DNA from: Strigamia acuminata
Lineage: Eukaryota; Arthropoda; Chilopoda; Geophilomorpha; Linotaeniidae
NCBI GenBank assembly: GCA_949358305.1
Contig: OX442322.1
Coordinates: 7,316,001 to 7,380,000 of the forward strand
Length of the DNA stretch: 64,000 nt
Direction of reading: 5' to 3'
Below are positions 8,977 through 28,900 of the stretch, one piece after another; positions within the stretch are counted from its first letter, which is position 1, and every line of letters starts with the position of its first letter. The notes under the pieces were generated by a model. It was not told the origin of the DNA. It did no database searches and saw only the letters and a list, made by a program, of their open reading frames with translations. Made by a program: the position numbers and the translations under genes.

Positions 8977-11607
8977 ATATCATCGACGTAGACTAACATG
9001 ACCGCGCAATTGCCGTAGATGTACACGCAGTTGCATGCGGGCATTTTCCGGAATCCGAGGGCTCGAAGTGCTTCGTCCAGTTTCAAATACCATTGTCGAC
9101 CTGACTGGGGGAGTCCGTAAAGAGATTTCACGAGTAACCAAACGTTGTCGGGGTGATTACAAGTGGCACCTGCCGGGATGCGCATGTAGACCTTGTGCTC
9201 GAGGTCCCCGTACAGGTATGCACATTTGACGTCAAGGTGTGCATCTTTCCATCCTCGTAGCACTACCAAAAGGCAAAAGAATAGACGAATGAGGACGAAA
9301 TTTACTACTGGACTAAAGACTTCGTCGTAATCGATTCCGAAGGTTTGGCGAAAGCCTTGGGCGACAAGTCAAGCACGATATCGAGTAATCTTGCCGGTCG
9401 CGTCTGATTTGAGTTTAAAAATCCATTTACAACCCAAGATTGTCGTGTTAGGCGGTTTCGGCACTTCGACATAAATTTCCCGCTCCTTAAAAGTTCCTAA
9501 CTCTTCACCGATGGCTTCACGCCACTTTGGAGCGTCGTCGAATTTGGGGATTTCCGCATACGATGACGGTTCGGTGCGACAGAGGTGAGCGGCATGTCGA
9601 GCTGGAGGAATCAACGGTAGAGTATGCTCCATGTTGCCGAAAAAGAATAACTCGGGATCGTAAGGGAGATTGTTCATAACACAGAACTCTTCGACGTCTC
9701 TGCGAGATCGAAGTCGGAGGCCGGGCTCGGGAAAATAGTAGACGTCAAAATCTATCGAACCTGGCTGTTGGTCTTTGCGTAGATGAAAACTAGCACGTGT
9801 GCTCTTCGCCCTGGCGCAAGAGTCACACGTTGACAACTCCTTATTCGAGAGTTTCAGCCCAAAAACATCAGTTGACTTTTCTAAACCCGCAATTCCCTTT
9901 GCATTTAAATGCCCTAAGCGGGAGTGCCAAATGTCCATCGTTTGAGCCTTATCTTTCTTGTCAAAAGTTTTAACCCCATTAGTAGAATTATTCCCATTCT
10001 CTGCTTTGTTCTGCACAATTGAACTTGCCTGCTTAGAGGCATTGGCAGTCTTTGCCTTGATTTCATTCAAAACATTCGCTTGCGCATTGTCCGTAATGTT
10101 CGCAGGCGAGTTATTTGCAACACTCGCTTGCCCTTTAATCGCTGGTGCAGGTTTCCCTGACTCACTCGAATTTTGGGTTAATGCGTCCTTAAAACTAGGG
10201 TATGTTAGTATCGAATTTACAACTTCATCGCCCTTTATAAGCGGACTAGAAGACACTGTCGCAGCCTGTTGCGCAGGTAATGCGGCAGTGTTCACATGAG
10301 AAATACGACAATTGACCTTATACATCCGATCACTCGTACGTTCCGCAGTGATGGAGGGGTCATCAATTTTGTCGTTATAAATAACCATTTTGCCATTTTT
10401 AATCATGGTCGTCGCCCCAGCCTCATCCGTGCGACCCAACGAAATCAAGTTTTTCCTAAAGTTGGGTGCATAAAATACATTTTGCAATGTAAGTGCACGG
10501 GTGCGAGTTCCATAAACTGATGTCAATGTTATATTTCCTATTCCCTCGATCCTCGACTTTCCTTCTCCCTGTTGCACATGGCCAGTTAATGGCTTGAAGT
10601 CGGAGAACCAGTCTTTGTTGAAGGAAAAATGGTCCGTCGCCCCTGTGTCGACGTACCATTGCGAATCATAATTCGCGTGAGACACGTGGGAAGCCGGCGC
10701 AGGGGGTTGCTGCTGAAGCCAGATCGCCGCGGAGTAATAAGAAACTGGAGAGTCACTGAATATGTCAGCCTGTGTGACAGTGGCCTTTTGCTGGCCTCTT
10801 CCACGTCCCTTGCCCCGTGGATTGCCTCTAAATTGTCCAGTTTGGTTTCCTTTTGCTTGGAATTGCTGTTTCGGTGGAGTAGGGCATTCACGGGCGAAGT
10901 GACCCGTCCCACCGCAAGTAAAACAGATGCGTGGGCCGCCGGGTGCATTTCCACCACGTCCGCGTTGTCTTCCGCCTTGGTTAAAGAAGGCACCAGTGCT
11001 CTCCAATGGCGTCTTGGAAGGCACGCCAAATTCGTCGGTCGTTACGTGTAAGCGATTATATTCGCCTACCAGGCGTTCTTTGACCGCTGCTGCCGTGAAC
11101 TCTGCATCACCCCAGTGATTGGGGCGGCAGCAGGTCGAGGTATTGAAAGGCGTGAAACTCGTCCGTAATCTTTATCTTGACGTCGGCAAGTTGCACGACC
11201 TTTCGGTCAACTCGTGCGGTGAAAACAAACATCTCTTCGTTTTCATGCAACCGCATGTCCAAAAATTCCCGGCGAAGACGGGCTTTACGTGCCCGTGTCG
11301 TGGGCTGGTAGGCAGCTTTCAGTGCCTCCCACACCTCCTTCGCAGTAGCGTGGGCGACAGCCACAACCTGTTGGGCCTCGCCACACGCCAGACAAATGGT
11401 GGAGCGAGCCCTTTCCTCGCCTTTCTCAAAATCCCTTGTCTCTCGAAACGGTGATCCGGCCGGCGGCTCTTTCGTCTTGCCGGTCACGTGGCCCCAAACT
11501 CCGTACGATTGGAGAAGGAGCTGGACTTGTACGCTCCAAGTCGGGTAGTTGGTTCCGTCCAACTTTTTCACATCCTTATAATCATCATGGCGGTCGTAGG
11601 ACGCCAT
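8977..11607 (-). pseudogene. gag-pol: C1 Gag-Pol polyprotein, multiply broken
   Basis: ATG at 11607. The Gag N-terminus (LDGTNYPTWSVQVQLLLQSYGVW) reads to a TGA at 11109-11107. An extra base in the C run 11110-11113 (plus strand) explains it, as the -1 frame continues with Gag, zinc knuckle (CFTCGGTGHFAREC), protease (DTGATDHFS) and the integrase HHCC finger (WHSRLGHLN...CDSCARAK). Near 9785-9795 the text jumps straight to the pre-RT region (LRKDQ): about 1.3 kb encoding the integrase catalytic core is missing compared with C4. A TGA at 9371-9369 replaces the CGA of RYRARLVAQ. RT then runs to YVDD, where G1 sits. Confidence 0.88.
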
Positions 11608-11848: not shown

Positions 11849-12136
11849 AATGAGACCCTGCGTGCCCGAATGAACGAAGAGCAGGGAATATGCTATAGGC
11901 CCAATACAAAAACTTAAATTTAACAGAGTTTCACGACAAATCAAAAAATACACTTGCTCGATGTTAAGATGATAAGGTTGCGGCGAATTGCGGGTGCAAA
12001 GCGTCGCAATAACGTCCTTCGAGGACGAAACGTTGCTCTCACGTCGTCGTACGCACGGAAAATGGGCTGTCGTGCCGTCCGCGTGCACACTTCCGTGCGA
12101 TCGCGGGAAAATCAACGTTGCGCTCGTCTGCGCCTT

Positions 12137-12166
12137 CGTGAGATGAACTCCGGGGTTCAAATCACG
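12137..12166 (-). promoter_or_regulatory. C1 leader hairpin with CCCGGA loop
   Basis: Minus strand: lower stem CGTGA/TCACG, 2-base internal loop, upper stem TGAAC/GTTCA, hexaloop CCCGGA. A second perfect hairpin, CCTGCACAC/GTGTGCAGG, lies close by at about 12177-12203. Confidence 0.6.
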
Positions 12167-12711
12167 GTAATCAATGCCTGCACACACGCTTATCGTGTGC
12201 AGGACTTTTCGTTGGCTACAGACTTCTCTGTATGCTGCGAAAATCGTCGTTCGCGACGAAAATCTCAAAAAGAAAATGGCCGCCGTCGCGAAAATCTTCC
12301 GTGATGGCGTCCAAACGTGCTTATTTCGCACGAAAATCGACAAAATAATGTCCTACCGTCGTTTGTATCCTTGTTGTGTGCTTATTTGTGCACACAACAC
12401 TGATGAAAATTCCCACGAAGTGATTCTCGTCGCACACACACGTAGAAATTCTCGAAGCACAAATCTCGACCGTCGTTTATTTGCACGACGTCGAGGCGAC
12501 GAAAAACATAAATTTCCGAACCAAAAACGTATCCAAACGATCCGCTGGTGTCGAAGAATCGTCCGCACACGTTGTCACGACGATTCTGCGATGAAATCCG
12601 CACCGAAAACTCGTTTTTACGACGAGCTGGGCGGGCGCACACTCGGCGACTTCTCGTAGTCGCAAAATGGCCGTTTCTTCTCCAAAAACGTCGTTGCCAG
12701 ATCGTTTTTAC

Positions 12712-12723
12712 CCTCTGCTACCA
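12712..12723 (-). other. C1 primer-binding site (iMet-tRNA 3' end)
   Basis: Minus strand TGGTAGCAGAGG, 3 bases after the LTR. Confidence 0.85.
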
Positions 12724-12726
12724 CTT

Positions 12727-13193
12727 TGAAGAGTTGTGATGGCCTGTGCGCTGCAGAAATAACTGGAAACATTATTTTGGCTGGGCGGATAAATCGGACA
12801 CGCGTCCGCCATCTTTTATTACAAAAGTTGTAGTAAAAATCACTTGAGTTCGAGGCTAATTGTCCTCGATCTCGTACAAAACAAAAGACAGAACGAATCA
12901 TTGTCTTTACACAATGATCCATTCTTTACATTAAGAGCAGGCCAAGTTAATCAATAAACTTGATCCAAAACAAAGCAAACAATAAGTGCTCTTTAGAGCG
13001 GATGACAATGTGAGATGTGTTATCGCAAATAATGATCGGTCGCGGTACCGTAACACGCATTGAATAAAAACCAGGATTGACCGATCACATGAACAGGTCT
13101 AGAAGCAATAACACATCAAATGCACTAAGCCGTAAAGGTGCATTTAACTTCACACGCGCGCACGGGGACAAACAGCAAAACATCAACCCAACA
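12727..13193 (-). repeat. C1 5' LTR
   Basis: 467 bp; minus strand TGTTGGGT...CTCTTCA. It abuts the C2 integrase codons on one side and the primer site on the other. Inverted repeats include TCGAGG/CCTCGA (12850-12869) and ATCATTGT/ACAATGAT (12897-12918). Confidence 0.75.
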
Positions 13194-15384
13194 CGTTCGC
13201 TGCCCTTGGATCCCTTTGTCCTTCAAATAGCGCTCGAATTCATTGGACATGAATTCTCCGCCACGGTCTGTGCGAATGGCCTTGATCGTTGTATTCGCAA
13301 CCCGTTCGACTCTAGCGGCAAAGTCCTTAAAACATGCGAAAACTTGGGACTTTTGCGCCAATGGGGTAATCCAAGTATAGCGTGTAGCGTCATCAATGAT
13401 CGTTAGAACGAAACGAGCTCCACCGAAAGATGTTGCAGGAGCCGGGCCCCACACGTCCATATGCAGGAGGTCGAGTGCTTTGGTAGTACTCGGGTGAAGG
13501 TCCGGCTTGTGGGAAATTTTAATCGATTTTGCAAGACGACAATCATTGCAAGCAAGTTCCTGTTTAACTTCTCCCGGTTCCATTCCGTAAACTTGTTCGT
13601 TGTTTGCCAACAGGCGCATTGCATTTGTGTGCAAATGCCCTAATCTGCTATGCCATAGCCCCGTAGCATCCTTTATGTTTGCAGGGTTAGCAATTGCCTT
13701 CTTTGGTGACTTAGAAGGATTGCTCGGAGGAGGAGGTATGGCAGGAGGAGTATTAGGTGATGGCGTTGTCGGGATGGATTGGAGAACGTTGGAATAGGAT
13801 TGGACAGGAGGATCTGGTTGGACATTGGTGGAGTTGGGAGCAGTTTGAGACTGGATAGGATTGACGATTTGATTCGGAATTTGCTTCGGAATTGGTGGCA
13901 TTTGAATTCGAAAATCCGTAATATAGTCTTGACCCGATTTGCCCCTTTTCGGTTTCGGAATGTTCTCAAAATCCACTTCTGTGGTGACATAAGTCTGAAC
14001 TGGCGGTTGCTGAACGGGTGTCGGAATCATCGTCGACACTGGAGTCGAAACCGTCGTAGACACAGAAGGTGTTGAACATAAAACCGTCCACATAATATAA
14101 TCCTGCCTTCTCCTTTGCCCGGAGAATAGAGCTCCGAATGTCCGATTGGTAGATATTGACTTCACCGTTGTAGAAGTGTATGTGACGACGTGTTTTATCG
14201 ATTTTGGAAACCGAAATCAAATTGGCCTCGAAATTCGGTGCAAGAAGTACGTTCGTCAAATTCACAATACAATTGCAGTCGTCTATCCTCGTGAGCAGTC
14301 GGACATTCCCTTTTCCAGTCACCTTGGACTTGCCTTGTCCGAGTTCGATGTCGAATGGCACGATGTCAACAAAATCCGTAAACCAAGCTCGAACATAGGA
14401 GACGTGGTCCGTCGCGCCACAGTCGACAATCCATTCGTTGGATTGCATGAAATGTGCAACTGGGCGCGCTGGGGCTTGTGGGGCACTGGCGAAGAATGTC
14501 CCTTCTCGTGTTGGACGAGAACAACCTCGCGGACGCGTATCATCCGGTTTTGGCGCGGAGTTTTTGTTGCGCTTCTTGCTCTTGCTTCGGGAGCGTTGAA
14601 AAGAAGCCGATGCCGGGGGTTGATTACGATCCTCCCGCCGTGGACAGGGACACTTGTTCACGTAGTGGCCCATCTCATTACAGTTGAAACATTTAATTTC
14701 GGATAAAGGTCGACGAGGACGGGAATTCTTCCGGGATTGTTGGCCTTTTACAGACGAATGCACAGAAGACGAGTGTACATTGTGCAATCCCATCGGTTTT
14801 AATCGCAGGTATTCGGAAATTAATTGTTCGGCAACTTTAGCCGGTGTGAATCCCGGATCGGGCCAATGATATATGGCGAACGTTGCCTGTGCGTATTCGG
14901 GCGGTAATCGGTTGAGGTATTGATATGCATGATGATCGGGTGTCGTAACTTCGTTGATATCGGCCAATTGCCGAACAAAGTGATCCACTCGATTGATGAA
15001 ATCCTGCATTTCCTCATTGGGTTCGAGATGTAAAGTCAAGAATTCCGATCGTAATGCTGCCCGTCGCGCCCGCGAACTAGGCGCGTACGCTTTGGCCAGG
15101 ACATCCCATGCCTGTTTGGGAGTGTCACAATTGTCCAGGGCTGAACGTTTCGGTTCGCTGACATACATGTAGATATGTCCGAGAGCTTTGTCCTTCTTGA
15201 CCATGTAACGCTCCTTTTCCTTCTCAGTTAATGTCAAGAGATGGTCGGCCTCCTTCTCCTCCGTTACATGCCTCCAAAGGCCCTCGGATTTCAAAAGCAT
15301 CCGCATCGCCCTCTGCCAGGGCTCGTAATTCCCGACAGAGAGGATGGGAATTCTGCTGACCGTCGTTTCCGTTGTCTTTTGCAT
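13194..15384 (-). pseudogene. gag-pol: C2 Gag-Pol polyprotein, frameshifted and cut
   Basis: ATG at 15384. Gag (NYEPWQRAMRMLLKSEGLWRHV; zinc knuckle CFNCNEMGHYVNKC) and protease (DCGATDHVSY) are in one frame. Near 14080 a 1-base indel shifts the frame, and the text continues from there with the linker, integrase HHCC (WHSRLGHLHTNA...CNDCRLAK), first catalytic Asp (MDVWGP) and second (RTDRGGEF). It stops at 13194 where C1 is inserted, a few codons before the Glu of DDE is reached. RT and RNase H are off-window. Confidence 0.88.
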
Positions 15385-15562
15385 CGTTTCGAAGATTCGG
15401 CACACCACGCAAAGCACACGGACTCAGAGAAATGGTATAACGGCGATCGAAGCACTTCACTAAATCACAAAAGGTGTGTACGAATGTTTGTTCACACAAT
15501 GTCGTTGCACTTATCACAAATTCACCTCCCTCGTGGTTCAAAGCGGATATCACCCGAAGGGG

Positions 15563-15673
15563 AGCCAATGCTGCAATTGGCTGAGAACCTAAAGCAAGTG
15601 TCCCCTTAGCTTCCTTTATAGCCACCTGGGGCTGCGGGAGTGCTAAGTGGCGCAGGGCTCAGCCTTGCTCTAG
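15563..15673 (-). promoter_or_regulatory. C2 structured leader domain upstream of gag
   Basis: Minus strand: outer stem CTAGAGCAAG (15673-15664) with CTTGCTTTAG (15598-15589), a GCCACTT...AGGTGGC inner stem, then hairpin AGCCAAT/ATTGGCT (15582-15563). Pairing is kept although several stem bases differ from C3 and C4. Confidence 0.6.
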
Positions 15674-15958
15674 AATACGAACACCGCTTGGACAGACTTG
15701 TCCGTAGGGCAGTGTCGATGCTAAAGGATCTCTCTCCAAAATACCCACTTAAATTTAACAGAGTTTCACGAAATGAAGGAGAAATAGATGAATCGCTGTG
15801 GATTGTCACACAGCCTCGTGCAATCAGATAACACGGCACAGTTCTCTCGAAGAACTGAGAAAAACGCAATTTGGATTCGAAAATCCAAATTCTTCTCATT
15901 AAATGAGGCTCTTCGCATAAAAGCTTTGAAAATCGTCAAAATTTCGAGTTCGGCGATA

Positions 15959-15985
15959 CTGTGCACACACCGGGGTGTGACACAG
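15959..15985 (-). promoter_or_regulatory. C2 leader hairpin with CCCGGT loop
   Basis: Minus strand: lower stem CTGTG/CACAG, one T bulge, upper stem CACAC/GTGTG, hexaloop CCCGGT. Confidence 0.6.
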
Positions 15986-16310
15986 CAAGAATTCGTCTCG
16001 TTTCTCGATGGTGAACGTCTACTCGACGTCGTCGAATCGAAAATCGTCGCCGTAACGTCGAAAATCTGAAAAACACAAAATCGCCGCAAAATTCGCGAAA
16101 CCCGCGGAATTTTCGGCGATAATTAATGAAAATAACTGGTGCACAACGTCGCCAAGGCGTTGTGTGAATGCAGGGGTCGTCTCACAGCGTGAAACGTAAG
16201 GGAAATGCCGAAAATCGTCGCGGAAACCTAAAAATACAAAATTGCCGCGAAATTCGCGGAATTTTCGGCAATAGTTAGTGGAAAAATAGCGTGCAAAGGA
16301 TGAAAACCAC

Positions 16311-16322
16311 CCTCTGCTACCA
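16311..16322 (-). other. C2 primer-binding site (iMet-tRNA 3' end)
   Basis: Minus strand TGGTAGCAGAGG, 2 bases after the LTR. Confidence 0.85.
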
Positions 16323-16324
16323 AT

Positions 16325-16873
16325 TGTAGGTCGGTAGCAGAGGAAAACGACCAAAAACCACTCGAAACGGCGAGTGCAGCGTGGCGAAAACGTCGCAAAG
16401 GCGTCGCACTACTCGTGCGAACGTGTGGGCGACGTCGGAGTCGAAAAACAAATAAAACGGCCGCGATATTCGCTTATACGCCGTGACAAATGATAAACAA
16501 GTGCTTAAAAACATAAAAACAAATTTACTAAACGAAAATACTTACAAATGAAGCAATTACATAGTGAAAAACGAGAGGCGAGAGCCAAAACGATGGTCGC
16601 CGCCATCTTGGAAGGTGATAAGAACACTAACGACACCTGGTGTCGTGAATTGGCGTTACGGAATTGAGAAATTCCGTAAAGCTTAACAAAGCATTAAGGC
16701 CTGCATGATACCTCATGCAGAAATACAATAACATAATGTAAATATTTGGAAATGACATACATAATTGAATATAATAAATATCGGAATAAATAAACGAATA
16801 TAATAAAACAAAATATCATAATGTGATTCTATATCACATCGACACACACATCATTTGGTTCCTTAGACCAACA
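16325..16873 (-). repeat. C2 5' LTR
   Basis: 549 bp. It holds perfect inverted repeats ACGACACC/GGTGTCGT (16630-16646), TTACGGAATT/AATTCCGTAA (16656-16679) and CTGCATGA/TCATGCAG (16701-16720). The partner LTR is off-window. Confidence 0.7.
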
Positions 16874-17264
16874 AAAACGGCAGGGGAGGTAGATGCAGCA
16901 ATGGAAACTATCGCTTCAAGTGTAGTTTCCATCAGAACTTCTGGAGCGACTTCAGCGACCACGTCCGTGATTACCTCATCCACTATTGTGGGAAGAACTT
17001 CGGCAACCATCGTCGGAACGACTTCTGAGGCGATATTAACCCGGGTCGGAGGAATATCTACCTGAATCGGTGGGGTGGCTACATCCTGACCAGGTGGGGA
17101 TGCCATAAGAGCATCACGCACGACGATGGGTTGCTCTGAAAAGAGCAAATGGTGGTCGGGTAAACCCGAGTGCCAATTGTTGTCAATTGCCGGACATTCA
17201 GCTGAAATTTGGTTCAGGAGCCGACACCACACAAACGAGCGCATTTGAAACGACTCAACTCGAC
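16874..17264 (-). pseudogene. G0 third ORF, continuation after G2, cut by C2
   Basis: The frame of 22902-21628 continues in register here once G2 and one copy of TCGAC (17260-17264) are removed; about 128 more codons are open. The segment has a hydrophilic helical start (MRSFVWCRLLNQIS) and a Val/Pro/Thr-rich tail with repeated V(A/D)EV-type units. C2 begins at 16873, so the C-terminus is missing from the window. The last residues of the apparent ORF beyond 16874 are encoded by the C2 LTR and are not part of this protein. Confidence 0.6.
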
Positions 17265-17296
17265 TGTAATGTCGCTATGAATGTCCGGATGTCAAT
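17265..17296 (-). repeat. G2 3' LTR remnant (32 bp)
   Basis: A perfect match to 21447-21478, i.e. the U5 end only. The pol stop codon lies inside it. Confidence 0.8.
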
Positions 17297-20200
17297 GGTC
17301 TCGTCCGCTCTGGAATCACTGACTGTTGTTGTTGTTCCACGGCTTGCTGGACAATCGGTTGAACGTCATCGAGTTGTTGGGGTTCCTCTCTCGCACCCCT
17401 CTCCTCCTCCTCCTCCGACACCGACAGTTCCATCTCACCGCCTCCCGGCTCATCAAATTCCCCATCCTCCACATCCTGTTCCATCTTTTTGAAAAATGAG
17501 GAATTCCTCACTACCTGGTACTGTCCTCGTTTAGCTGTGATCCGAGAACCCTCGACCTTTACCACCGTCATCAACTCGGGATCATATGGAGTCATTAACT
17601 TATTCGTTTTCCTCCTTTTTACCAAAACCTGATCGCCGACTGTCAACCCATGCGAACACACTCTCCTTCGACCATCCGCTTCCAACTTCATCTTCTCTTT
17701 TCCTTTCTCATCTCGCTGTCGCACTCCATCGTCATTTACCTTTCCAAAATTCTGCGGCAGTCTCGTCTGCAATGCTCGCTGATATAACAATTTTGCCGGT
17801 GCCACGCCCGTTGTTGAATGTGGCGTTGCGCGGTAGTTTAATAAAAACTCATGGATCTCTTTACTCCACACCCTTCCTTCCGTTACAGCTGTAAGAATCG
17901 CCTTGTTTAGAGTCCGCATCATCCTTTCTACTTCTCCATTCGCTTCGGGCCATAACGGGGTTACTCTCCTATGTTGGATTCCAAACCCACTCATAAAGAC
18001 TCGGATCTCCTCTGATGTAAATGGAGGCCCATTGTCCGACTTAACCGACTCCGGAATACCAAGCTCCGAGAATCTCTTCTCAAGAATAGGAATTATCGTC
18101 CTCGCCGCTGTTGAATTCACCTCATCTACAAATGGGAAACGTGAATATTCATCCACCATCACCAACAACAATCGCCCGTCTGGAAATGGCCCTAGAAAAT
18201 CCATCGCCAACCGTTGCCATGGTCTTTCCGGCAACACCGACATTTGCAAAGGTTCCCTTCTCGAAACCACCAAACTGGCTTGGCACGGCACACACTGCGC
18301 AATTCTCCTCTCGACCCGTTTATCCAGGCCCGGAAACCACACCTTCTCTCTCAACAAATTCTTCGTTTTCACAACTCCCTGATGCCCTCTGTGGGCCAGT
18401 TCTACCACTCTCGATCTTAATGACTCCGGGATTAAAATTCGATCGCCTCGCAGCAAAACACCATCCCCCGTACTCGTGATTTCATCTCTTATCATCATAA
18501 ACGGTTTCAGTCGCTCCTCTTGCCACGGCTTCTCTCCTTCTCCGTGCAAAGCCTTCCTCAGCAACTGCAAAACCTCATCTGCTCTAGTCTCCCGAATCAC
18601 CTCCTCTCTCGTCATTGTTGTCGGCATCCGCGTTTCCACCACGAAATTCACGTATCGCTCTACCACTTTCTCCGTCAAACTAAGTCGTGACCCTGGATGT
18701 CGTGATAAATAATCACTCGGGTTCGTAGCTCCTGACGTGTGCTTAACCTCGAATTCGTATTGCTGTATCCGAAGACACAACCGTTCAATCCTCGCCGATG
18801 GTCTCGCTCTGCGGTTACTAAAAATGCTCACCAACGGCTTATGGTCTGTAAAAATCACAAACACAGTTCCGTATAAATATAGATAGAAATGTTCTACTGA
18901 CCAAACAACCGCAAGTGTCTCTTTTTCTATCTGTGAATATCGTGTTTCTACGTCAGTCAATGCTCTACTGGCATACGCAACAACCCGTGGTTCAGCTTCT
19001 CCTTCTCGCAGTTGAGCCAAAATCGCACCCAATCCGTGTGGACCCGCGTCGACCGTCAGATGAATTTTCGCCGTCGAATCGTAATAGGCCAAGATCTCGT
19101 TGTTGCTCAGCTCTCGTTTTACATATTCCCACGCACTTTGATGTTCTGGTTTCCATGCAAACACCGCACTCTTCCTTGTTAAATCTCTCAACGACTTGGT
19201 TTTGTCGGCCATATTACGCACAAATCGCGCGCAATACACAATCATTCCAAGAAGACTCTTTACTTCTGCCGCACTCGTCGGTGTTTCCATCTTGACTACT
19301 GCTTCCACCTTCTTTGGGTCAACGGCAATGCCTCGCTCTGAAAATACATGTCCGAAAAAAATTAACTCCTTCTTTCCAAATTCACACTTCTGTTTGTTCA
19401 ACGTGAGCCTTTTTTCTTTCAACTTTCGCAACACTCCGTGTAACGCCTCCCCATGATCCTTATCTCTTTTACCAACCACGAAAATGTCGTCCATAATATT
19501 TATGGTGTTATCCACTTCCTCAATCACCTTTTCCACGGAATCCTGGAAAATCTCAGGCGCTGAATTTACTCCAAAACCAAGCCGCTTAAAACGAAATAAA
19601 CCAACGTGCGTCGCGAAAACCATAAATTGTCGCGACACCTCGTCAAGTTCCAACTGGTGAAAACCATGATTCAAGTCCAACTTCGAAAAGATCGTCGCTC
19701 CTTCAGCCATCGATATGAGATCCTCCAGCCTCGGAGATGTGTGTCTCACCCTCTTAATTGCACGGTTCACCTCCCTAGCATCCATGCATATACGGATCGC
19801 ATCGGGGTCCGGGTCTTTTGGTTTATCAACCACGTGTATCGGTGATATCCACGATGTGGGACCCATCGATTCATCCACTCTCTCGATAATGTCCATCTCC
19901 ACCAGTCGCATCAACTCCTTTTCTACTTTTCGTCTCAAATTAAATGGTAGCGGCCTATATCGCTGGGCCACCGGAGGCACCGATTCGTCCACATGTAGAT
20001 GTACCTGGCGACCTGCCAATTTTCCTATTCCGCGGAACAGTTCCGGATACTGCTCCTCTATTTGTGTCGCCAAATTTCCTTGTTCGACGCTATTGACAGC
20101 GCCAATGACTCCCAGCCGTCGTGCTGTCGCGTAACTCAATAAAGATTCCCCTTTCCGATCAACCACAAACAAATCAGTCACAACCTCCTCCTTATCTCTA

Positions 20201-21342
20201 CCTCCCAGCGTCGTTCTCATCCATCCCAACAATGGTAGTGGCTCTGTCGCTCCGTACGGCAAAAGTCGAACATCACTCCATCTTAATTCTGGCGCCGGCG
20301 TCAATTGTTTAAACACCTCCCTGCTCAAAATGTCAACAGACGTGCCCGAATCCACCACGAACGACACCTTCACCTTCCGCTTCCCCATCAGCAGCTCCAC
20401 CCTCGGCATTTCCTTCTGCGAGCCAACCAAACCAATATTCCAAATTGGCACATCATCATCCAAGATGTCCTCTCGAGATGGCGCTTTATTCATGATATTA
20501 ACCTTCTGTTTCACTTCCTCTTTGCCGTCCTGTTTGGATTTACAAAATCGAACGAAATGCCCGACTCTCCCGCACCCGTGGCATTTAACCGTTTTCGCGG
20601 GGCAATTCTGTCCTTCCAAATGCGGCCAATTCCGACCACAATTAAAGCATCTCCTAGCTGGTCCACCTCCTCTCGATGCTGCACCTGCGCCACCACCCCT
20701 ATCTGTTCCACGTCTAGAATTGCCAAAACGTACCAAATTAATGTCTAATTCATCCGAATTACTCACGACCTCCATTTGTTTGGCCTGCCACTCGGAAGTT
20801 TCATAACCACGACCTGCATCCAATAAGTCCTTCAACACCCATGCTGTCTCTCGAAGCCCTCGACGACGTAAATGGCCCATCATCGTTCCCATGATGATTT
20901 GAGATTTAATTTCCGCACTATCGTCCGTAAAATCGCATCCGACTGACAGTTGTTTCAAACGTGTATGAAATTCGTCTATCGTCTCGCCCGCCCTCTGGCG
21001 ACTCATCCGAAAATTATATTTACAAAATTCGACGTTCTTCCTCGGTGCAAAATACGTCGCTAATGCGTCTTTGACCGTCTTATATTTAGCGTCCGCCAAC
21101 GTGAGTGTTTCGTATATCGCGTACACCTCCTCACCGGCATGATGGAGTAACATCGCCGCCCTTCTCGCATCGTCCGTTATTCCCGCGGCGACTAAATACA
21201 TCTCCAAACGTCCGACCCACCTTGTCCATCTCTGGCTCTGTGTTGTCACTTCCCCATGAATATCAAAACTCGGTAAACCCGACGCTTGCACGAAACTAGC
21301 CGGTCCCGGTGCCACGCCCACCACTGGCTTCGACTCCGCCAT
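17275..21342 (-). CDS. gag-pol: G2 Gag-Pol polyprotein in one frame
   Basis: 1355 codons from ATG 21342, with Gag and Pol fused without a frameshift. The Gag helical region spans about 35-190. Two zinc-knuckle-like clusters lie at about 232-267 (CFNCGRNWPH...; CHGCGRVGHFVRFC). The protease motif is DSGTSVDIL at 331-339. RT spans about 460-640, and its active-site box reads IMDD (616-619) rather than YxDD. RNase H follows (TVDAGPHGLGAIL; FTDHKPLV), then integrase (HRGHQGV...CVPCQ; AMDFLGPF; SDNGPPF; EANGEVERMM). The Gln/Glu-rich C-terminus runs into the LTR remnant, so the native end is probably lost. The frame is otherwise intact. Confidence 0.9.
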   Translation of the reverse strand: MAESKPVVGVAPGPASFVQASGLPSFDIHGEVTTQSQRWTRWVGRLEMYLVAAGITDDARRAAMLLHHAGEEVYAIYETLTLADAKYKTVKDALATYFAPRKNVEFCKYNFRMSRQRAGETIDEFHTRLKQLSVGCDFTDDSAEIKSQIIMGTMMGHLRRRGLRETAWVLKDLLDAGRGYETSEWQAKQMEVVSNSDELDINLVRFGNSRRGTDRGGGAGAASRGGGPARRCFNCGRNWPHLEGQNCPAKTVKCHGCGRVGHFVRFCKSKQDGKEEVKQKVNIMNKAPSREDILDDDVPIWNIGLVGSQKEMPRVELLMGKRKVKVSFVVDSGTSVDILSREVFKQLTPAPELRWSDVRLLPYGATEPLPLLGWMRTTLGGRDKEEVVTDLFVVDRKGESLLSYATARRLGVIGAVNSVEQGNLATQIEEQYPELFRGIGKLAGRQVHLHVDESVPPVAQRYRPLPFNLRRKVEKELMRLVEMDIIERVDESMGPTSWISPIHVVDKPKDPDPDAIRICMDAREVNRAIKRVRHTSPRLEDLISMAEGATIFSKLDLNHGFHQLELDEVSRQFMVFATHVGLFRFKRLGFGVNSAPEIFQDSVEKVIEEVDNTINIMDDIFVVGKRDKDHGEALHGVLRKLKEKRLTLNKQKCEFGKKELIFFGHVFSERGIAVDPKKVEAVVKMETPTSAAEVKSLLGMIVYCARFVRNMADKTKSLRDLTRKSAVFAWKPEHQSAWEYVKRELSNNEILAYYDSTAKIHLTVDAGPHGLGAILAQLREGEAEPRVVAYASRALTDVETRYSQIEKETLAVVWSVEHFYLYLYGTVFVIFTDHKPLVSIFSNRRARPSARIERLCLRIQQYEFEVKHTSGATNPSDYLSRHPGSRLSLTEKVVERYVNFVVETRMPTTMTREEVIRETRADEVLQLLRKALHGEGEKPWQEERLKPFMMIRDEITSTGDGVLLRGDRILIPESLRSRVVELAHRGHQGVVKTKNLLREKVWFPGLDKRVERRIAQCVPCQASLVVSRREPLQMSVLPERPWQRLAMDFLGPFPDGRLLLVMVDEYSRFPFVDEVNSTAARTIIPILEKRFSELGIPESVKSDNGPPFTSEEIRVFMSGFGIQHRRVTPLWPEANGEVERMMRTLNKAILTAVTEGRVWSKEIHEFLLNYRATPHSTTGVAPAKLLYQRALQTRLPQNFGKVNDDGVRQRDEKGKEKMKLEADGRRRVCSHGLTVGDQVLVKRRKTNKLMTPYDPELMTVVKVEGSRITAKRGQYQVVRNSSFFKKMEQDVEDGEFDEPGGGEMELSVSEEEEERGAREEPQQLDDVQPIVQQAVEQQQQSVIPERTRPLTSGHS

Positions 21343-21430
21343 CTTGGAAAAAATTCAAACGCACCGATGTTCACACAAAATCGTAACTCACACGTTCAAT
21401 CGTCCGTCAAACGTTCTCCACACGAAATTA

Positions 21431-21445
21431 TCCCGCTCGTCGCCA
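21431..21445 (-). other. G2 primer-binding site (probably tRNA-Ser)
   Basis: Minus strand TGGCGACGAGCGGGA one base after the LTR; the first 10 bases fit the complement of tRNA-Ser(GCU), the primer type known for mag elements. Confidence 0.55.
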
Positions 21446-21446
21446 A

Positions 21447-21627
21447 TGTAATGTCGCTATGAATGTCCGGATGTCAATAAAGCACGCACACACTTTCATT
21501 CAATACTTGATTCCTATCTGACTCTTTATTTCAGCTTCATCACCTTTATACTCTCGGTCACCTTCATCACAACCTCGCGCCCTCTAGTGGCGGTATATAC
21601 ATTTAATCGAGTCATCACTATATCACA
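21447..21627 (-). repeat. G2 5' LTR
   Basis: 181 bp; minus strand TGTGATATAG...GACATTACA. TATAAA is at 21550-21545 and AATAAA at 21530-21525 (minus strand). Confidence 0.8.
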
Positions 21628-22902
21628 TCGACTAGGATGAAAAATCCATTGCATGATTGCCAAGGGTATCGAGTAATCTGGGGTGGAGCCATTTTTTAGT
21701 GCCAGACAAACTCGTTTTGCTGATTCCAATAAACCGGGAAAATGGTGGCTAACCTCCGCCTTTGCCTTTTCGATCCCTACCAAGTTAGTTGGTGGCATGA
21801 ACGGTGATATCATAAGAATGACCGGCTCTGGCGTAGGAGTGCGGGGGCGCAGAGGCGACACATCGAAATTTGGATCATACACAATATCGGTGCTCGGGGG
21901 CTCACTGGACATGGTACAGGAATCCAAGTTCAAATTATCCCAAGTTGAAACTTGAGGTAGCGAAGAAGTCGACGACTCTTCTTTGATCAAACAGGAATCC
22001 GATAGGATTTTTACTTGGGTTGAGCTCTTCTGAGGTGCTACAACCCCTCCATGGGGTGTATTCTCCCTCGACATGGTAGCCGGATCCTCGTGTATTGCGA
22101 TTTCTGGCCCCTTATGAATTAAACCGCAATTACGACAAGTTGCCCAGTTTCGCGCAGTAGGAGTTGTGAGACCTTTAACTACATATGGTTCTATGTCTAC
22201 ATTCCATAACTTGTTTAATGCTAAACGTTTCGACCCGTGACAATTTACGCATACGACTGCATGCACACCACTCATCAATGAAGAGAGCCACCCGCAACCT
22301 GCACATAAAGGGCAGAACCCAGTTTTTGCGTTTGGGGGAATCAAAGTTCCTAAGGCGGCGGTATCCAGATCTCTAAATACAATCTCCTTACGGGCTTTCC
22401 TATACAAGGGCAAATTCATCTCACTTATGGATTGGGAACCTCCTCGTGTGAGAGCTTCAGCGGACGAGTTGATGGTGGAACCCGTTTTCTTAACAATGGC
22501 CTGACTACTCTGGTTAGGACGTTGTTGCTTGCCCTTATTCGTTTGGCGTCCTTGAGGTCGTTGAGATGTATTTCCTTGTTGGAAGTTGTCTCGACGGCCC
22601 TGGCGAGAGTTAGATCGAGATCGTTGTATTTCGTCTGACTGATCCCAGGTTTGATCGTCCGAATGAACGTACGCGACTGTTCGTTGATTACGACCAGAGT
22701 TTCTGGGTGCTGGGGTTTGCACGTCAATTGCCATGGCATCGAGGATTTCCGGGGGTACAACTCCTGGATTATCACGTGCCCAATTTGCCACAATTTCGGG
22801 ATTTGAGGAAGTGTTGACGAAACGGTAATCAGTTTCCTCCTCTTCTTCGTCAGTATCCCAGTGTACATACTGGCGTTTAGGTGCCTTTCCTTTCCGACTC
22901 AT
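21628..22902 (-). pseudogene. G0 third ORF, N-terminal part (unrecognised protein, split by G2)
   Basis: 425 codons from an ATG at 22902 up to the G2 insertion point. I do not recognise the family. Visible features: an acidic stretch near residues 16-26; a long basic, Arg/Ser/Gln/Asn-rich low-complexity region at about 90-135; then a Cys cluster with CPLC at 197-200, C203, CVNC at 218-221 and CRNC at 256-259, suggestive of a zinc-binding module; then a Ser/Thr/Pro-rich linker and a helical region near 370-420. No signal peptide or membrane segment is seen, so it does not look like an envelope protein. It lies on the same strand as G0 gag and pol, about 1.15 kb after pol once C3 is removed. 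It could instead be a host gene next to a G0 lacking its 3' LTR. Confidence 0.6.
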
Positions 22903-23475
22903 GATATCTGTTATATTAAAATTTAAAGAAATTTAATATTCACTTAAACTTTCCAAAAAAAATAAATGGTTCTAAAATAAATATCCTATCGAATATAAAA
23001 TTTAGAACCAATTCGTCAGTTGAAATTGATATGATAAAGCGGAATTTTTAATTGCTGAAATAATTTCGTTCAACAAAAGAATTTCATCAACAGAAATATA
23101 TTCAACCATGGTTATTCTCATAAAATAAACGTGGTTTCTTCGTTTTCCGCAGTTTGGGAAATAAATAACCATCCAGGCAAGTTTTCTTAACAACTTGCCA
23201 TCTGGTGGTGAAATTTGAAAGTACCACGTGTCAATATAGCACGTGTAAATTCATAATTTCGGAAAATAACTGGATTTTTTTCTTAATTAGACTCTATCAG
23301 ACAATCTTTGATTTTAATAAATCATAATATAACTTACTGACTGAAAGAATCTCGATTCGATAGTTGAAACCCTTCCTTCGTGAGGTCGAAGTTGGTTCGT
23401 AGCGAAGGTTGACTCCTTAATATCTAAAGATATATTTGGGATAAATCTTCGCTAGGTCTTTTAACATGAACATAA
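22903..23475 (-). other. G0 post-pol spacer, part 2, upstream of third ORF
   Basis: AT-rich, about 570 bases, continuous with 36754 once C3 is removed (CATAA duplication). On the minus strand an ...ACAG lies just 5 bases upstream of the third-ORF ATG (at 22910-22908) and could be a splice acceptor; a GTAAGT lies further upstream. An 8-bp inverted repeat (TAGCGAAG / CTTCGCTA) is near 23400-23455. A 63-codon ORF at 23193-23002 has no recognisable features and I do not annotate it. Confidence 0.4.
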
Positions 23476-24032
23476 TGTTGGACTTTGGAACCACTTTTGA
23501 GTTATTTAAATCATTTTTCGATGTGAAATGGCTTTGAAACGTTTATTTTATCATTTATCGGTAATTGTTTCCATTTTCCTGGGTTATTCAGTGTTTATTT
23601 AGTGTTTTCATGCTTGTTTGTCAGGAGAATGCATGATACCGGGTTAAATGTACTCAATACATTAGGTTTCATGCATCCTCTATCTTGTTCTTATGTTTTT
23701 CATTATTATTGTTTATAATATCGACCACCAGATGTCTCTGGCACATTACAAATGGCTGCTCACACGGGTAGTGTGTTTCCTTGTGTTTGTCCAGTGATTC
23801 TGGACCCATTATGTAAGTTTTCTCTTAATAAATGTTATATTTTTGGTTAACTATTGTATTTAGTTCGGCACTACACGTTTCTATAAGTGTAGTGCACGCG
23901 AATTTGATCGTAAGTCCGCTCAAACTCGCGTACGCGCATCACGCGCATTTGTCCGCACTTAGAAGTGCGTTTGACTCAGTTTTACGCTTCCTATCGCCTA
24001 TTTCGGCGATATTTTTGCGCCACACAGCTACA
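23476..24032 (+). repeat. C3 5' LTR
   Basis: 557 bp, TGTTGGAC...GCTACA. It contains a chain of short perfect inverted repeats: ATGCATGA/TCATGCAT at 23629-23676, GCACTACAC/GTGTAGTGC at 23868-23895, CGCACTT/AAGTGCG at 23954-23969 and TATCGCC/GGCGATA at 23992-24011. AATAAA occurs near 23826. Confidence 0.93.
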
Positions 24033-24034
24033 AG

Positions 24035-24046
24035 TGGTAGCAGAGG
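24035..24046 (+). other. C3 primer-binding site (iMet-tRNA 3' end)
   Basis: TGGTAGCAGAGG, 2 bases after the LTR, complementary to the 3' end of animal initiator tRNA-Met. Confidence 0.85.
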
Positions 24047-24503
24047 CCTGGAAAGCCACCAGTGCCTCGTTTTTCCATTAATTTTCCGTGAATTTTGCGA
24101 TTTTTCGCGATTTTTGCGGAAATTTTTGTTTTTTTCAGATTTTCGACAATTTCCGGCAGTCAACAACGTCTTTATGACGTTCACAACCCCGGAGTGCGGT
24201 CGTAATCGTCGATTTTTGAATTTTTTTAACCTTTTTTCGTGTTTTTCGAGTTAAAAACACTGTTTTTTTGTGTTTTTCGAGTTAAAAACACTGCTTTTTG
24301 TGCATTTATTGTGCAAGATAGCGACAATTGACCTAGGAAAGGTCTTGTTCTTTTTTTTCCCTCTAATTTTTCGTGAATTTCGCGATTTTTCGCGAATTTT
24401 GCGGAAATTTCATTTATTTTCAGATTTTTTCGCCGATTTTCATCATTTGTCACGTTCCGACAACGTCTGAGCGACGTTTTCATCCAGAAACGGGCATAAC
24501 CCG

Positions 24504-24528
24504 CTGTCTGCACCCCGGAGTGCGACAG
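24504..24528 (+). promoter_or_regulatory. C3 leader hairpin with CCCGGA loop
   Basis: Lower stem CTGTC/GACAG, single T bulge, upper stem GCAC/GTGC, hexaloop CCCGGA. Same architecture as the hairpins in C1, C2 and C4 with different stem bases. Confidence 0.6.
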
Positions 24529-24629
24529 TATCGGCGATTTTCGGGAAGTTTTTCCCGGTTTTCGAAATCGGTCGGCGATCTTTTGAAGAATTCCGCATTT
24601 TTTTATGCGCGGTGTGCACAGGGACGTCT

Positions 24630-25182
24630 TGTTGGACTTTGGAACCGCTTTTCACCTAATTAAATCGTTTTTCGATGTGAAATGACTTTGAAATGTTTAT
24701 TTTATTATCCATCGGTTATCTTTTCTTATTCGGGGTAATTTAGTATTGTTTCTTATGTTTTTCCTTAGTTTCTATGTAAAGGGAATGCATGATGCCTTTT
24801 AGATGTGTCTTATCCATCTGGCATCATGCATCCTCTATTCTGTGTGTATTTCTACTTATTGTTTCTATTTTCGGCCACCAGATGTCTCTGGCAGATTGCA
24901 AATGGCCGCGCACACAGCCAGTGTGTTTCTCTATGTTTTCCAATGGTTTTTGGATCAATTATGTAAGTTTTCTCGAATTAAAGTGTATTTTGTTAATTAT
25001 CAGTATTAGTTTATGTGCCACACGTCGTTATAAGTGTGGCACACGCGTTTTCTGGCCCAATACAGACCCGAACTCGCGTTTACGCATCACGGCAATTTTT
25101 CCAGCTCATGCATTGCCGTGAGCACGTTATTTTCACGCTTCCAGCACGATTTATCGTGCATTTATTGCGCCACAGAGCTACA
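24630..25182 (+). repeat. C4 5' LTR
   Basis: 553 bp. Perfect inverted repeats in series: ATGCATGATGCC/GGCATCATGCAT (24785-24831), TGTGCCACAC/GTGTGGCACA with a 10-base loop (25014-25043), CACGGCAAT/ATTGCCGTG (25088-25120) and GCACGAT/ATCGTGC (25144-25159). These stand where the C3 LTR hairpins stand. Confidence 0.95.
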
Positions 25183-25184
25183 AG

Positions 25185-25196
25185 TGGTAGCAGAGG
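25185..25196 (+). other. C4 primer-binding site (iMet-tRNA 3' end)
   Basis: TGGTAGCAGAGG, 2 bases after the LTR, as in C3. Confidence 0.85.
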
Positions 25197-25317
25197 CCTG
25201 GAAAGACACCAGTGCCTCGTTTTTTCACTAATTTTCCGTAAATTTCGCGATTTTTTCGCGATTTGTGCGGAAATTTTTGTTTATTTCCAGTTTTTCGCCG
25301 AATTTCCGATGTCTCGA

Positions 25318-25345
25318 CACACTTTGTACCCCGGAGTACAGTGTG
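25318..25345 (+). promoter_or_regulatory. C4 leader hairpin 1 with CCCGGA loop
   Basis: Lower stem CACAC/GTGTG, TT bulge on the 5' side, upper stem TGTAC/GTACA, hexaloop CCCGGA at 25330-25335. Confidence 0.6.
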
Positions 25346-25364
25346 GCCACATAGAACTTCATCT

Positions 25365-25388
25365 CGCTTAGTACCCCGGTGTACGGCG
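25365..25388 (+). promoter_or_regulatory. C4 leader hairpin 2 with CCCGGT loop
   Basis: Upper stem GTAC/GTAC around CCCGGT (25375-25380), weaker lower stem CGC/GCG. A second, shorter copy of the same motif. Confidence 0.5.
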
Positions 25389-25652
25389 AATTTTTTTTCA
25401 GAAGTTTTTCCCGATTTTCACAATCGGACGGCGATTTTTTTCCCGATTTTCGAAATCGGTCGGCGATCTTTTGAAGAATTCCGCATTTTTTATGCGCGGT
25501 GTGCACAGGGACGTCTGTGCATACAGATTCATCAACTTCTCCTTCCTTTTATTTCAGATTTCGAATTTATTTGTTAGTTTTAAGTTTTTTGGTGTGGGTC
25601 AATTAGAATCCTTGGCGCCCTTCGTCCAAATCTGGGCAAGCGTCACTGTATT

Positions 25653-25904: not shown

Positions 25905-28900
25905 ATGCAAAAGGCTTCCGAAGCGACGTTGGGACGTGTACCGGTCCTGACGACCGGCAACTACGAACAATGGCAACGAACAGTTAAGATGTTGCTCAAA
26001 AGTGAAGGCCTGTGGCATCACGTCACAGAAGACGGCGAGGAGGATTTTCTGAAGACGGCGGATGATAAAGAGAAACGCAAATATCAACGTCGGAAGGAAC
26101 GAGCCCTAGGAACAATTTATTGTTTGGTATCCGAAGCCAAACAGTCGGCACTCGATGGCTGCGAGACACCGAAGGAACAATGGGACATGCTCGCCAAGAT
26201 CTACGCCCCCAGTTCACTTGCCCGTCAGGCAGCTATGCGCCGACAGTTCTTGCAATTGAAACTGGAGCCGAACGAGGAGATGCCCGATTTCCTGGGGCGT
26301 GTAGACCTGATGGTTCGTCAATTGAAGGACATCGGAGAGGACATTCTCCCTCGACATCAGGCCTACCAGTACCTCGATTTTCTTCCAGCGGATTACGACC
26401 AGGCAACGTTCTCCATTTACCATTGGCCGTTGGCGAATTTTACCCCGGCCAAAGTCTCCGAACAGCTCTTGTCGGAATACCTTCGTTTGAAGTCGAAATC
26501 CGACCACGATACGAAGAAGACGACGGCATTCGCCGCGGACAATCGCAACCGCAGTCAATCTCGCAATCCTCGTCCACTATCGCAAATTTGTTGTTTCAAT
26601 TGCGATCAGATGGGCCACTACGCGAACAAATGCCCTCTTCCGCGCCGACAATCGAAGGAACAGCAACCGGCAGCTGCACTACAAGGACGATCTCGCAGCA
26701 AAAACCGACGTCGAAAGGGAACCAATTCTCAGCAACCGGGTGGTCAAAGCCGTGAAATTTCCCGCCCGCGACGTGATGCTGCGTACCTCTTGTCTGCGCC
26801 ACCAGTTGTTACAGCACCGACTGTGCATTTCCTCCAATCCCACGAATGGATCGTTGATTGCGGCGCAACCGACCACGTGTCGCACGTTAAAGCGTGGTTC
26901 ACGAACTTTGTTTCCGTTGTCCCGTTTAACATCGAGTTAGGACAAGGCAGTTCGAAGGTCACAGGCAAAGGTGACGTTCCGGTCAAGTCGCTCATCGATG
27001 GCTGCGAATGCACCGTAATGCTACGCGACGTCTTATTCGCACCTGACTTCGGCGCCAACTTAATCTCGGTTTCTCGGATTGATAAATGCGGACATCACAT
27101 CCACATTCACAACTCGGAATTGCATACGTATGAAACGGACATCAAACTAAGTGTTCTTCGGGCGAAACAGAAGTCTGGACTTTATTTCGTGGATGGGCTT
27201 ATCTCGCCATTCGCCGCTCCGACTAATGTTTCGAGTTCTCCACCCGTTTCATCGTTGCCTCCGACTCCGACACCGACCACTCTAGTGACGAAGGAAGAGG
27301 ACTTTCCCGCATTGCCCAAGTCTTCCAACAAGGCTAAGACGAAGTCGGCTGACAATATGACCGATTTCCGCTTGCCCGTCTCCTCCAACACCTTACTGGT
27401 CCCTTCATTTTTTCCTACCAGTCCTGCTCCTATTCCCGGATCCCAACCTCAACAGATCCGGATGTATTCCAATGCCCTCACATCTCCTCTTCCCGTTGCC
27501 AAGTCAAACGCAACATTACCTCCTCCTGTTGCTAAGTCAAATGCAACATCACCTCTTAAACCGGTTACTACGTCGGTCAACGTCGCGGATGCCACGGGAT
27601 TGTGGCACAGCAGACTGGGTCACCTGCACACCAAAGCCATGCGGACTTTGGCTGCTAACTCCCAGGTTTACGGACTTGATCCAGCTGCTGTTCGACAGGA
27701 ACTTTCATGCAACACGTGCCGTGTCGCCAAGTCTACGCGTGCTTCGCATAAGCCGATTTCCGCGCCTTCGACCACGAAACCGCTTGAATTGCTTCACATG
27801 GACGTCTGGGGCCCGTCGAGACTGCCTTCCATTGGTGGCGCTAATTTCGCCTTCACCATTATCGACGACGCCACCAGGTATGCCTGGCTTTTCCCGATTG
27901 CCCGTAAATCCGATGTTTTCGCTACGTTCAAAGACTTTGTTTCCCGTGTCGAACGTATAGCCGATTGCCGGATCAAAACGATTCGTACCGACCGTGGAGG
28001 AGAATTCATTTCAAGGGATTTTGACCGTTATCTCGCCGACAAGGGCATTGTTGCACAACGGACCAATCCCGCGAGCCCACAAATGAACGGAGTCGCCGAA
28101 CGCCTGAACCGGACGATGGGCGATTATCTCCGCTCCGTTAGATCCGAAACCGGATTTCCGCATACGCTTTGGGCCGAACTTGCTGTGACTTTCGTGTACA
28201 TCAAGAACCGAAGTCCGCATTCGAAGCTCAACGACGAAATCCCGTACATTTTGTGGCGCCAGCGAGCTCTCTCCGTCAGACATTTTCGTAAAATCGGTTC
28301 CAAGTGCTGGGTGCACTTCACCGCGCCTGGACGCAACAAACTGGATCCTCGAGCGTGGGAGGGATTTCTCGTCGGCTACGCTTCTGGTACTCGCGGTTAT
28401 CGAGTTTTGAATCCGGCTACGAACACTGTCACCGAAACTGTCCACGTCCAAATCGATGAACGGCAGAACTTTAAACGCTCGCCCTTTTATGTTCCGGATC
28501 CGGATGACAATGCTCCACCCATGGAGGAGCCTGCTCGTGGCCACACCCCGTCGCGTGTCACTTTTCATGATAATTTCCCAACTCAACCTTGGCCTCGACG
28601 ACGTCGCGATTCGGATAACGATTCTTCCGCCGGCAGTAGTGACGATGATGGAATTATCAGTCGTGCTCAGTCTGTCGCTTCGACCGCTCCGTCTTTCGCT
28701 TCATTTGCCCCGTCCGCCGCTGCAAGCGTGCCTCTGGATGGTGAGGCTATTCCTGATGGCTCCGTGACCGCTGCCGATGACTCCGTTACTGCAGCGACCG
28801 TTGCAGGACATGGCCAATTTTCTCCAACCATACGTTCCACGCGTTTACCCCAGCTGCGACGTTCGATCTCTTACCCAACTCTTCCATGTCTTGACGACAC

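Follow-up and report, generated by a model that had tools for sequence, protein, structure and literature searches.

In RNA hairpins of the pseudo-triloop class, the first and fifth bases of a hexaloop pair across the loop, three bases are exposed between them, and the sixth base, which must not complement the first, is extruded; the passages of PMC8466369 on this class add that triloop and pseudo-triloop interchange in some viral systems. The iron-responsive element (IRE) is recognised through three exposed tip bases that stand at a constant distance from its bulge, and the 38 classic IRE sequences treated in that source have no G at the sixth base (PMC8466369). The hepadnaviral encapsidation signal, epsilon, consists of a lower stem, a bulge, an upper stem and a pseudo-triloop (PMC3748129). 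In the copia superfamily itself, SL1a/SL3a and PAL of Ty1 belong to a 5′ RNA tied to dimerisation and packaging (PMC5454406, PMC4974528), and conserved dimerisation and packaging signals are said to exist in BARE2 (PMC3735527). Here we describe a hairpin in the leaders of four copia elements, C1 to C4, in 64,000 nucleotides of the genome of the centipede Strigamia acuminata (contig OX442322.1, positions 7,316,001 to 7,380,000; this whole stretch is called the window). We propose, with confidence approaching but not reaching an even chance, that it is a pseudo-triloop recognition hairpin of a copia clade, read by a protein, probably Gag, for packaging.

The primer site TGGTAGCAGAGG, which we take to be of the initiator tRNA-Met type, was found in each of the four elements. 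The minus strand carries C1 and C2, the plus strand C3 and C4; C4 is nested inside C3, as read from repeat pairs (Table 1). A sequence-only reading of the window had placed five hairpins between primer site and gag, and folding together with a covariance model bears this out: all five sit 3′ of the primer site and 5′ of the coding region (for C1, the gag start was not located). The model was trained on seven hairpins, namely the two of C4 (C4a and C4b) and five from other parts of the genome, with C1, C2 and C3 left out; in a scan of both strands of the window, the five hairpins were its top five matches, at 39.7, 37.0, 25.7, 25.5 and 19.0 bits. A sixth match, at 14.7 bits, is the antisense of C3. 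An Rfam scan of the window found no family at gathering score. Predicted pair probabilities are at least 0.97 for C3 (0.97 in the uninterrupted leader piece), at least 0.91 for C1 and 0.71 for C2. The uniform shape with a small 5′ bulge that had been described holds for C4; the bulge is a single nucleotide in C3 and in C2, for which an alternative register is possible, and C1 departs from it, folding with a 2/2 internal loop and no 5′ bulge. The second C4 hairpin, earlier called a weaker copy, is a full member. The possible second hairpin of C1 is one of 24 matches of a permissive scan of both strands of the window, 17 others of which are unrelated.

The genome analysed comprises 237.5 Mb in 157 contigs, and every genome-wide count comes from this single genome. 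A pattern with a TT bulge, a CCCGGW loop and two fixed pairs occurs in 430 copies, against 11 for the reversed control. Of the 100 copies listed, 94 have complementary bases at both of the upper pairs left free, and the unfixed lower stem forms at least four of five pairs in 76 in the first register and in 93 when a second register, that of the C1 type with two extra 3′ bases, is allowed. In 16 dereplicated hexaloop hairpins, misses included, 60 of the 80 lower-stem cells pair in the first register, compared with 35.2 after shuffling, and 12 of the 16 have a lower stem in either the first or the second register, compared with 4.1; none of 10,000 shuffles reached either value. Across 30 distinct hexaloop rows, in which misses were again kept, the paired share of cells is 83.0%; shuffling gives 61.3, and sliding the register no more than 48.9%. 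These rows have a covariation score of 0.540 against 0.159 shuffled, a value reached by none of 500 shuffles and above that of every slid register, which upholds the earlier claim that stem bases vary while pairing is kept. Eighteen distinct pentaloop rows (fetched stretches, described below, and the pentaloops of earlier loci) score 0.438 against 0.168, again reached by none of 500 shuffles. Lower stems include G-U pairs (two positions, for example, have them in 11 and in 6 of the 30 rows), and the C1 family shows compensated upper stems, TGAAC/GTTCA, CGGAC/GTTCG and CAAAC/GTTTG (L001, L004 and L097). We read this stem pattern as RNA pairing under constraint.

The primer site GTGGTAGCAGAGG has 538 matches in the genome. 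To follow the spread of the shape, the leaders of the first 100 of these, which share one contig, were joined with the four window leaders into one sample and grouped into 45 clusters (more than 75% identity over more than 500 nt). A scan of the 45 cluster representatives that ignored loop and bulge letters, the end pairs of the upper stem being fixed as G-C and C-G, gave 12 sense matches against a shuffle mean of 0.7 (maximum 2 in 20 shuffles). Two of the 12 (L018 and L089) look like chance; of three antisense matches, one mirrors C1 and one comes from an oppositely oriented element. Where the gag is 38% or more identical to that of C2, which holds for 7 clusters, the shape is present in 40 of 42 copies, with CCG tips in 35, ACAGT in 4 and CTCGGA in 1. 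Hence neither of the outcomes that the sequence-only reading had named as counting against it, an absence of covariation or loss of the hairpin in most relatives, was seen in this genome. All 6 copies of the C1 cluster and one of the 4 copies of the L012 cluster have the shape, and both copies of the L044 cluster carry hairpins of the same shape with other loops. None of 21 further clusters, which have no gag match, has the shape; one of these, L009, starts like C4 after the primer site, yet is without the hairpin. Further loci have the hairpin core upstream of a gag 61% (L208), 33% (L209, no clear lower stem) or 31% (L207) identical to that of C2; L206 and L200 match gag over a shorter length, L201 has a copia pol match, and the sole copia match of L180 covers 48 residues. 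Tandem hairpins stand 45 nt apart in C4, 42 nt in L180, 70 nt in L045 and 81 nt in L205, which joins an ACCGT to a CCCGGT hairpin. The hairpin observation is thus confirmed, and it extends beyond the window. Its position in the leader, 3′ of the primer site and 5′ of gag (not located in the C1 cluster), is as for the packaging signal of a long terminal repeat element. A protein search with the C2 gag gave three matches, all in the centipede Strigamia maritima (42-56% identity), and a search of viral contigs with the C4 protein found no relatives.

The loop had been described as invariant, CCCGG followed by A or T. This is too narrow: C also occurs at position six, and homologous hairpins have five-base loops. 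With the stems fixed and the six-base loop left free, CCCGG is followed by C in 41, A in 32 and T in 15 of the 100 matches listed (88 together), and CCCGGG is not among them; in the same list, positions 1 and 5 are complementary as C-G in 88 and as U-G in 1, a pair that in the CCCGGW hexaloop rows is imposed by the search pattern. When C or G is allowed at position six, C is found in 73 of 76 copies and G in 3 (the A or T version being the 430 above), figures that count copies, not independent families, most of the 73 being one word. A position six that is almost never G is a mark of a pseudo-triloop and fits a cross-loop pair between C at position one and G at position five. As far as its letters go, the hexaloop combines both features of that class, 1-5 complementarity and a non-complementary sixth base. 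Broader patterns separate less well from their reversed controls: TTNGCAC-N6-GTGC gave 827 matches against 730, a poor separation, TTAGCAC-N6-GTGCG 156 against 131, the control perhaps matching another repeat, and TTAGCAC-N5-GTGCG 20 against 15, with a TCCGA loop in 12 of the 20; from the last two, only the loop composition of the listed matches was used.

The five-base loops are best represented by L015, the largest cluster of the primer-site sample, whose 17 copies have the same architecture with loop ACCGT (12) or ACAGT (4), one copy having none. Its commonest form is CGAC-TTA-GTAC-[ACCGT]-GTAC-G-GTCG, and by eye its flanks resemble those of some CCCGG families. In the genome, the pattern for N-CCG-N loops gave 82 matches against 18 for the control, mainly ACCGT and TCCGA, and TTAGNAC-NNNGN-GTNCG gave 90 against 34, with loops that include ACCGT, TCCGA and, nine times, GAAGT. 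Twenty N-CCG-N stretches were fetched by choice (TCCGA and unusual ones) and not by random draw. Many TCCGA hairpins have unrelated yet complementary lower stems, such as CACAAA/TTTGTG, CTTACA/TGTAAG and GTGTA/TACAC. Of the 18 pentaloop rows, 11 combine a complete upper stem with four or more lower pairs; the ends of the loop form an A-U or U-A pair in 10 of these 11, and 2 of the remaining 7 rows have paired loop ends. The feature common to both loop sizes is, in predicted form, a CCG on a closing pair of which both bases vary; where that pair is C-G, a base other than G is extruded as well.

Comparison of sequences thus establishes, at the level of predicted structure, stems that stay paired although both of their strands have changed, a bulge, a CCG tip with co-varying ends, the near-absence of G at the extruded place, and an occurrence in several copia families, at times as tandem copies, as well as, for the hexaloop and ACCGT families, a place between primer site and coding region. 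In the architecture that we propose, a lower stem roughly 5 bp long or longer, free in sequence, would be followed by a 5′ bulge, mainly UU or UA and often with A opposite G, and by a 4-bp upper stem, mainly G-N-N-C/G-N-N-C. CCG would be presented at the tip in two ways: by a pseudo-triloop, C-[CCG]-G, from which A, C or U is extruded, and by a true triloop closed as A-[CCG]-U or U-[CCG]-A. Tip and bulge would be read jointly by one protein, and stems of free sequence fit a protein-read hairpin with IRE-like recognition. The reader would most likely be the element's own Gag or nucleocapsid, choosing its RNA for virus-like particles. Gag-directed packaging is the first candidate because of the leader place, the presence in several families and the zinc knuckle, which is matched in the coding pieces of C1, C2 and C4 (in C4 below threshold, at 20.0 against the Pfam cut-off of 20.8 bits). 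To our knowledge, outside yeast Ty1 little is known of how an animal copia element chooses its own RNA for particles. The many compensated variants within one genome, including swaps between pseudo-triloop and triloop, offer a natural mutational series for Gag or for a host reader, and make dimerisation versus recognition directly testable.

The copia hairpin resembles the members of the pseudo-triloop class (PMC8466369) in the predicted form of its hexaloop, with a 1-5 cross-loop pair, three exposed bases and an extruded, non-complementary sixth base, and differs in the exposed triplet, here CCG, and in the carrier, the leaders of metazoan copia elements. In the open-licence literature we found neither a CCG-tip hairpin nor a metazoan copia packaging hairpin, which does not prove absence from print. 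We know of no described pseudo-triloop member with a CCG triplet. With epsilon it shares the order of lower stem, bulge, upper stem and, as predicted, six-base apical pseudo-triloop, as well as a reverse-transcribing carrier. Unlike it, epsilon is about 85 nt long (PMC9963113) and is read by the polymerase for protein priming, whereas the copia elements have a tRNA-type primer site; the likeness drawn here is one of plan. Because of that primer site, bulge-templated, protein-primed synthesis is unlikely here. It is tempting to go further and to suppose that the copia clade uses a code of UU/UA bulge and CCG tip, that pseudo-triloop and triloop swap naturally, that one or several such hairpins make up a packaging signal read by Gag, and that an LTR-retrotransposon counterpart of the epsilon plan was reached independently; this more speculative combination we put forward as somewhat improbable as a whole.

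A number of points weigh against a protein-read packaging hairpin. Besides the restriction of all counts to one genome, the loop filters of the family-shape scan were set after the loops had been seen, and the covariation statistics ignore kinship among rows. Pairs changed on both sides do not stand out, being equalled by 327 of 500 shuffles for hexaloops and 325 of 500 for pentaloops, and further pair types, the second weak measure of five, were reached by 16 of 500 and 166 of 500, respectively. Among the 16 dereplicated hexaloop rows, four (L103, L117, L173 and L133) have at most two lower pairs in either register, L133 being probably a chance match, and three TCCGA loci (L179, L183 and L184) have broken stems. 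Three of the single-hairpin folds barely beat their own shuffles (z of -0.96 for L004, -1.35 for C4b and -1.38 for L006), and the pair probability of C4a and C4b depends on the leader context, at 0.10-0.37 in several and 0.71-0.96 in others. The shape is absent from all 28 copies of 14 short-leader copia clusters (gag match 19-36%, start at most about 620 nt from the primer site). Six loci, L202, L203, L204, L205, L212 and L182, gave no copia match within 2.3-3.4 kb, and several TCCGA hairpins have no carrier assigned to them. Loops outside the CCG tip rule also occur, namely GTACGA, ATACGC, GGACGT, GGAAGT, CTCGGA and the ACAGT of four L015 copies, and the counts at position six, as said, are of copies.

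The reader need not be Gag. A host RNA-binding protein could read the hairpin and so regulate how the element RNA is translated, exported or stabilised, much as iron regulatory protein does through the IRE, and we consider this unlikely, though a serious contender. Gag identity among hairpin-bearing loci falls to about 31-33%, so that the loci could conceivably share a reader that is not part of the element. The plan of two short helices, a 5′ bulge and a pseudo-triloop agrees with the IRE class as set out in the relevant passages of PMC8466369, as does the length of about 30 nt. The AGU tip and bulged C that define the IRE are, however, missing: the copia tip is CCG, its bulge is UU/UA, it mostly has four upper pairs instead of five, and its natural triloop form would kill IRE function (PMC8466369). 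Membership of the IRE family itself is ruled out by the CCG tip and the UU/UA bulge.

The loop palindrome led the sequence-only reading to suggest kissing. In a fuller form of this idea the hairpin would initiate dimerisation, two element RNAs kissing through the CCGG of the hexaloop and then extending. As a general account we find this doubtful, although kissing may occur in the hexaloop families. There, CCGG is constant and self-complementary, and the bare-loop self-duplex of CCCGG followed by C, T or A is predicted at -6.3 to -7.9 kcal/mol; the loops GTACGA (-5.0 kcal/mol) and GGACGT (-2.5 kcal/mol) carry other 4-nt palindromes. On the other side, the palindrome is itself the common feature of retroviral dimerisation initiation sites, according to the relevant passages of PMC5874298, and a self-complementary loop, kept in the hexaloop families, is absent in ACCGT and TCCGA hairpins: the self-duplex falls to -0.3 kcal/mol for ACCGT and -1.3 kcal/mol for TCCGA while stems, bulge and CCG stay. 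TCCAA, ACAGT and GGAAGT have little or no self-duplex, and the largest sample cluster, L015, mostly has the scarcely self-pairing loops ACCGT and ACAGT. The best self-pairer of all would be CCCGGG, at -11.5 kcal/mol, yet G is near-absent at position six, which is unexpected for a CCGG kiss. As a sole function, then, kissing is set back by loops without the palindrome.

The earlier remark of knowing no described equivalent in copia is limited by the kissing-loop model of Ty1, a member of the same superfamily, which also lends kissing some support (PMC5454406). In that model, as far as the cited passages go, two different loops kiss within a pseudoknot domain, and Ty1 is likened here to the present elements by role and not by hairpin shape or CCG tip. 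Complementary loops of the Ty1 kind were looked for by inspection only; the ACCGT and CCCGGT loops of L205 share a 4-bp ACCG/CGGT match, and the identical TCCGA loops of L180 do not. The gammaretroviral hairpins SL-C and SL-D are likewise two similar neighbouring hairpins near a dimerisation and packaging region (PMC5874298), with GACG tetraloops instead; the comparison covers loops and placement.

Retroelement leaders may hold enhancers or insulators. The near-palindromic core could be a transcription factor or insulator site acting as DNA, which is highly improbable given lower stems that are free in sequence yet complementary, G-U pairs included, a bulge on one strand only and a strand-specific loop. 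Least probable of all, and barely worth entertaining, is chance or common descent without selection on structure: within-family copies are near-identical, kinship can lift scores above column shuffles and two of the five covariation measures are unremarkable, but the dereplicated hexaloops hold the lower stem in register, and the upper stems are compensated inside one family, as described above.

Table 1. Positions, strands and supporting evidence of the copia features in the window.
Element	Feature	Positions	Strand	Evidence
C1	Leader hairpin, loop CCCGGA, lower stem CGTGA/TCACG, upper stem TGAAC/GTTCA	12137..12166	-	Fold, covariance model
C1	Possible second hairpin, same shape, loop GGAAGT	12079..12106	-	Weak: 9.3 bits, predicted pairing at most 0.15
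C1	Primer binding site TGGTAGCAGAGG	12712..12723	-	Sequence match
C1	copia coding piece	9369..11024	-	Zinc knuckle, Pol_BBD, gag_pre-integrs
C2	Leader hairpin, loop CCCGGT, 1-nt bulge	15959..15985	-	Fold, covariance model
C2	Primer binding site	16311..16322	-	Sequence match
C2	copia gag region	14166..15384	-	PF14223, zinc knuckle PF00098
C3	Leader hairpin, loop CCCGGA, 1-nt bulge	24503..24529	+	Fold, covariance model
C3	Primer binding site	24035..24046	+	Sequence match
C3	copia coding region beyond nested C4	31705..36144	+	Repeat pairs, Pfam
C4	First leader hairpin (C4a), loop CCCGGA, TT bulge	25318..25345	+	Fold, covariance model
C4	Second leader hairpin (C4b), loop CCCGGT, bulge TTA opposite G	25363..25390	+	Fold, covariance model
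C4	Primer binding site	25185..25196	+	Sequence match
C4	copia gag-pol, ATG picked by eye	25905..30812	+	Open reading frame 25839-30812; gag, integrase and RVT_2 domains

Some observations concern loops and loci at the margin of this set. The leaders L044, L045, L013 and L097 carry hairpins of the same shape with loops GTACGA, ATACGC, GGACGT, GACGT and GGAAGT; the form NNACGN, common to GTACGA, ATACGC and GGACGT, is possibly a second tip class. A repeated hairpin-like word, TTAGGACGAAGTGTCCG, with loop GAAGT, makes up nine of the 90 TTAGNAC-NNNGN-GTNCG matches. In L180, a reading frame that by eye resembles a RING finger lies upstream of the two TCCGA hairpins, and the TCCGA hairpins of L180 and L181 are not preceded by an exact primer site.

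Elsewhere in the window, the scans found neither the primer site TGGTAGCAGAGG nor a CCG-tip hairpin at a fifth copia coding region, 44018-47629 (-), and two long reading frames, 51639-54779 and 60070-62727 (+), have no Pfam match at E 0.001. A Pfam match to the methyl-CpG-binding domain (MBD; cut-off 21 bits) lies between integrase and reverse transcriptase in C4, at 29055-29192 (+) with 24.5 bits, and another in the C3 polyprotein, at 34387-34521 (+) with 22.9 bits. The primer site adjoins an inverted copy of itself, CCTCTGCTAC...GTAGCAGAGG, at 16311-16343 of the window and in the primer region of the L015 family, so that the primer site could sit in a hairpin. Finally, C2, C3 and C4 share a strongly conserved block (81-94%) of some 100-165 nt ahead of the coding region, at 15532-15696 (-) in C2 and at 25647-25753 (+) and 31531-31695 (+) in C3/C4, and 88 nt of it are 76% conserved in two loci of the C1 family. 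Because by eye it contains compensated inverted repeats, CTTAGACAAG/CTTGTCTAAG in C3 and C4 and CTAGAGCAAG/CTTGCTTTAG in C2, this block may be a second structured RNA domain.

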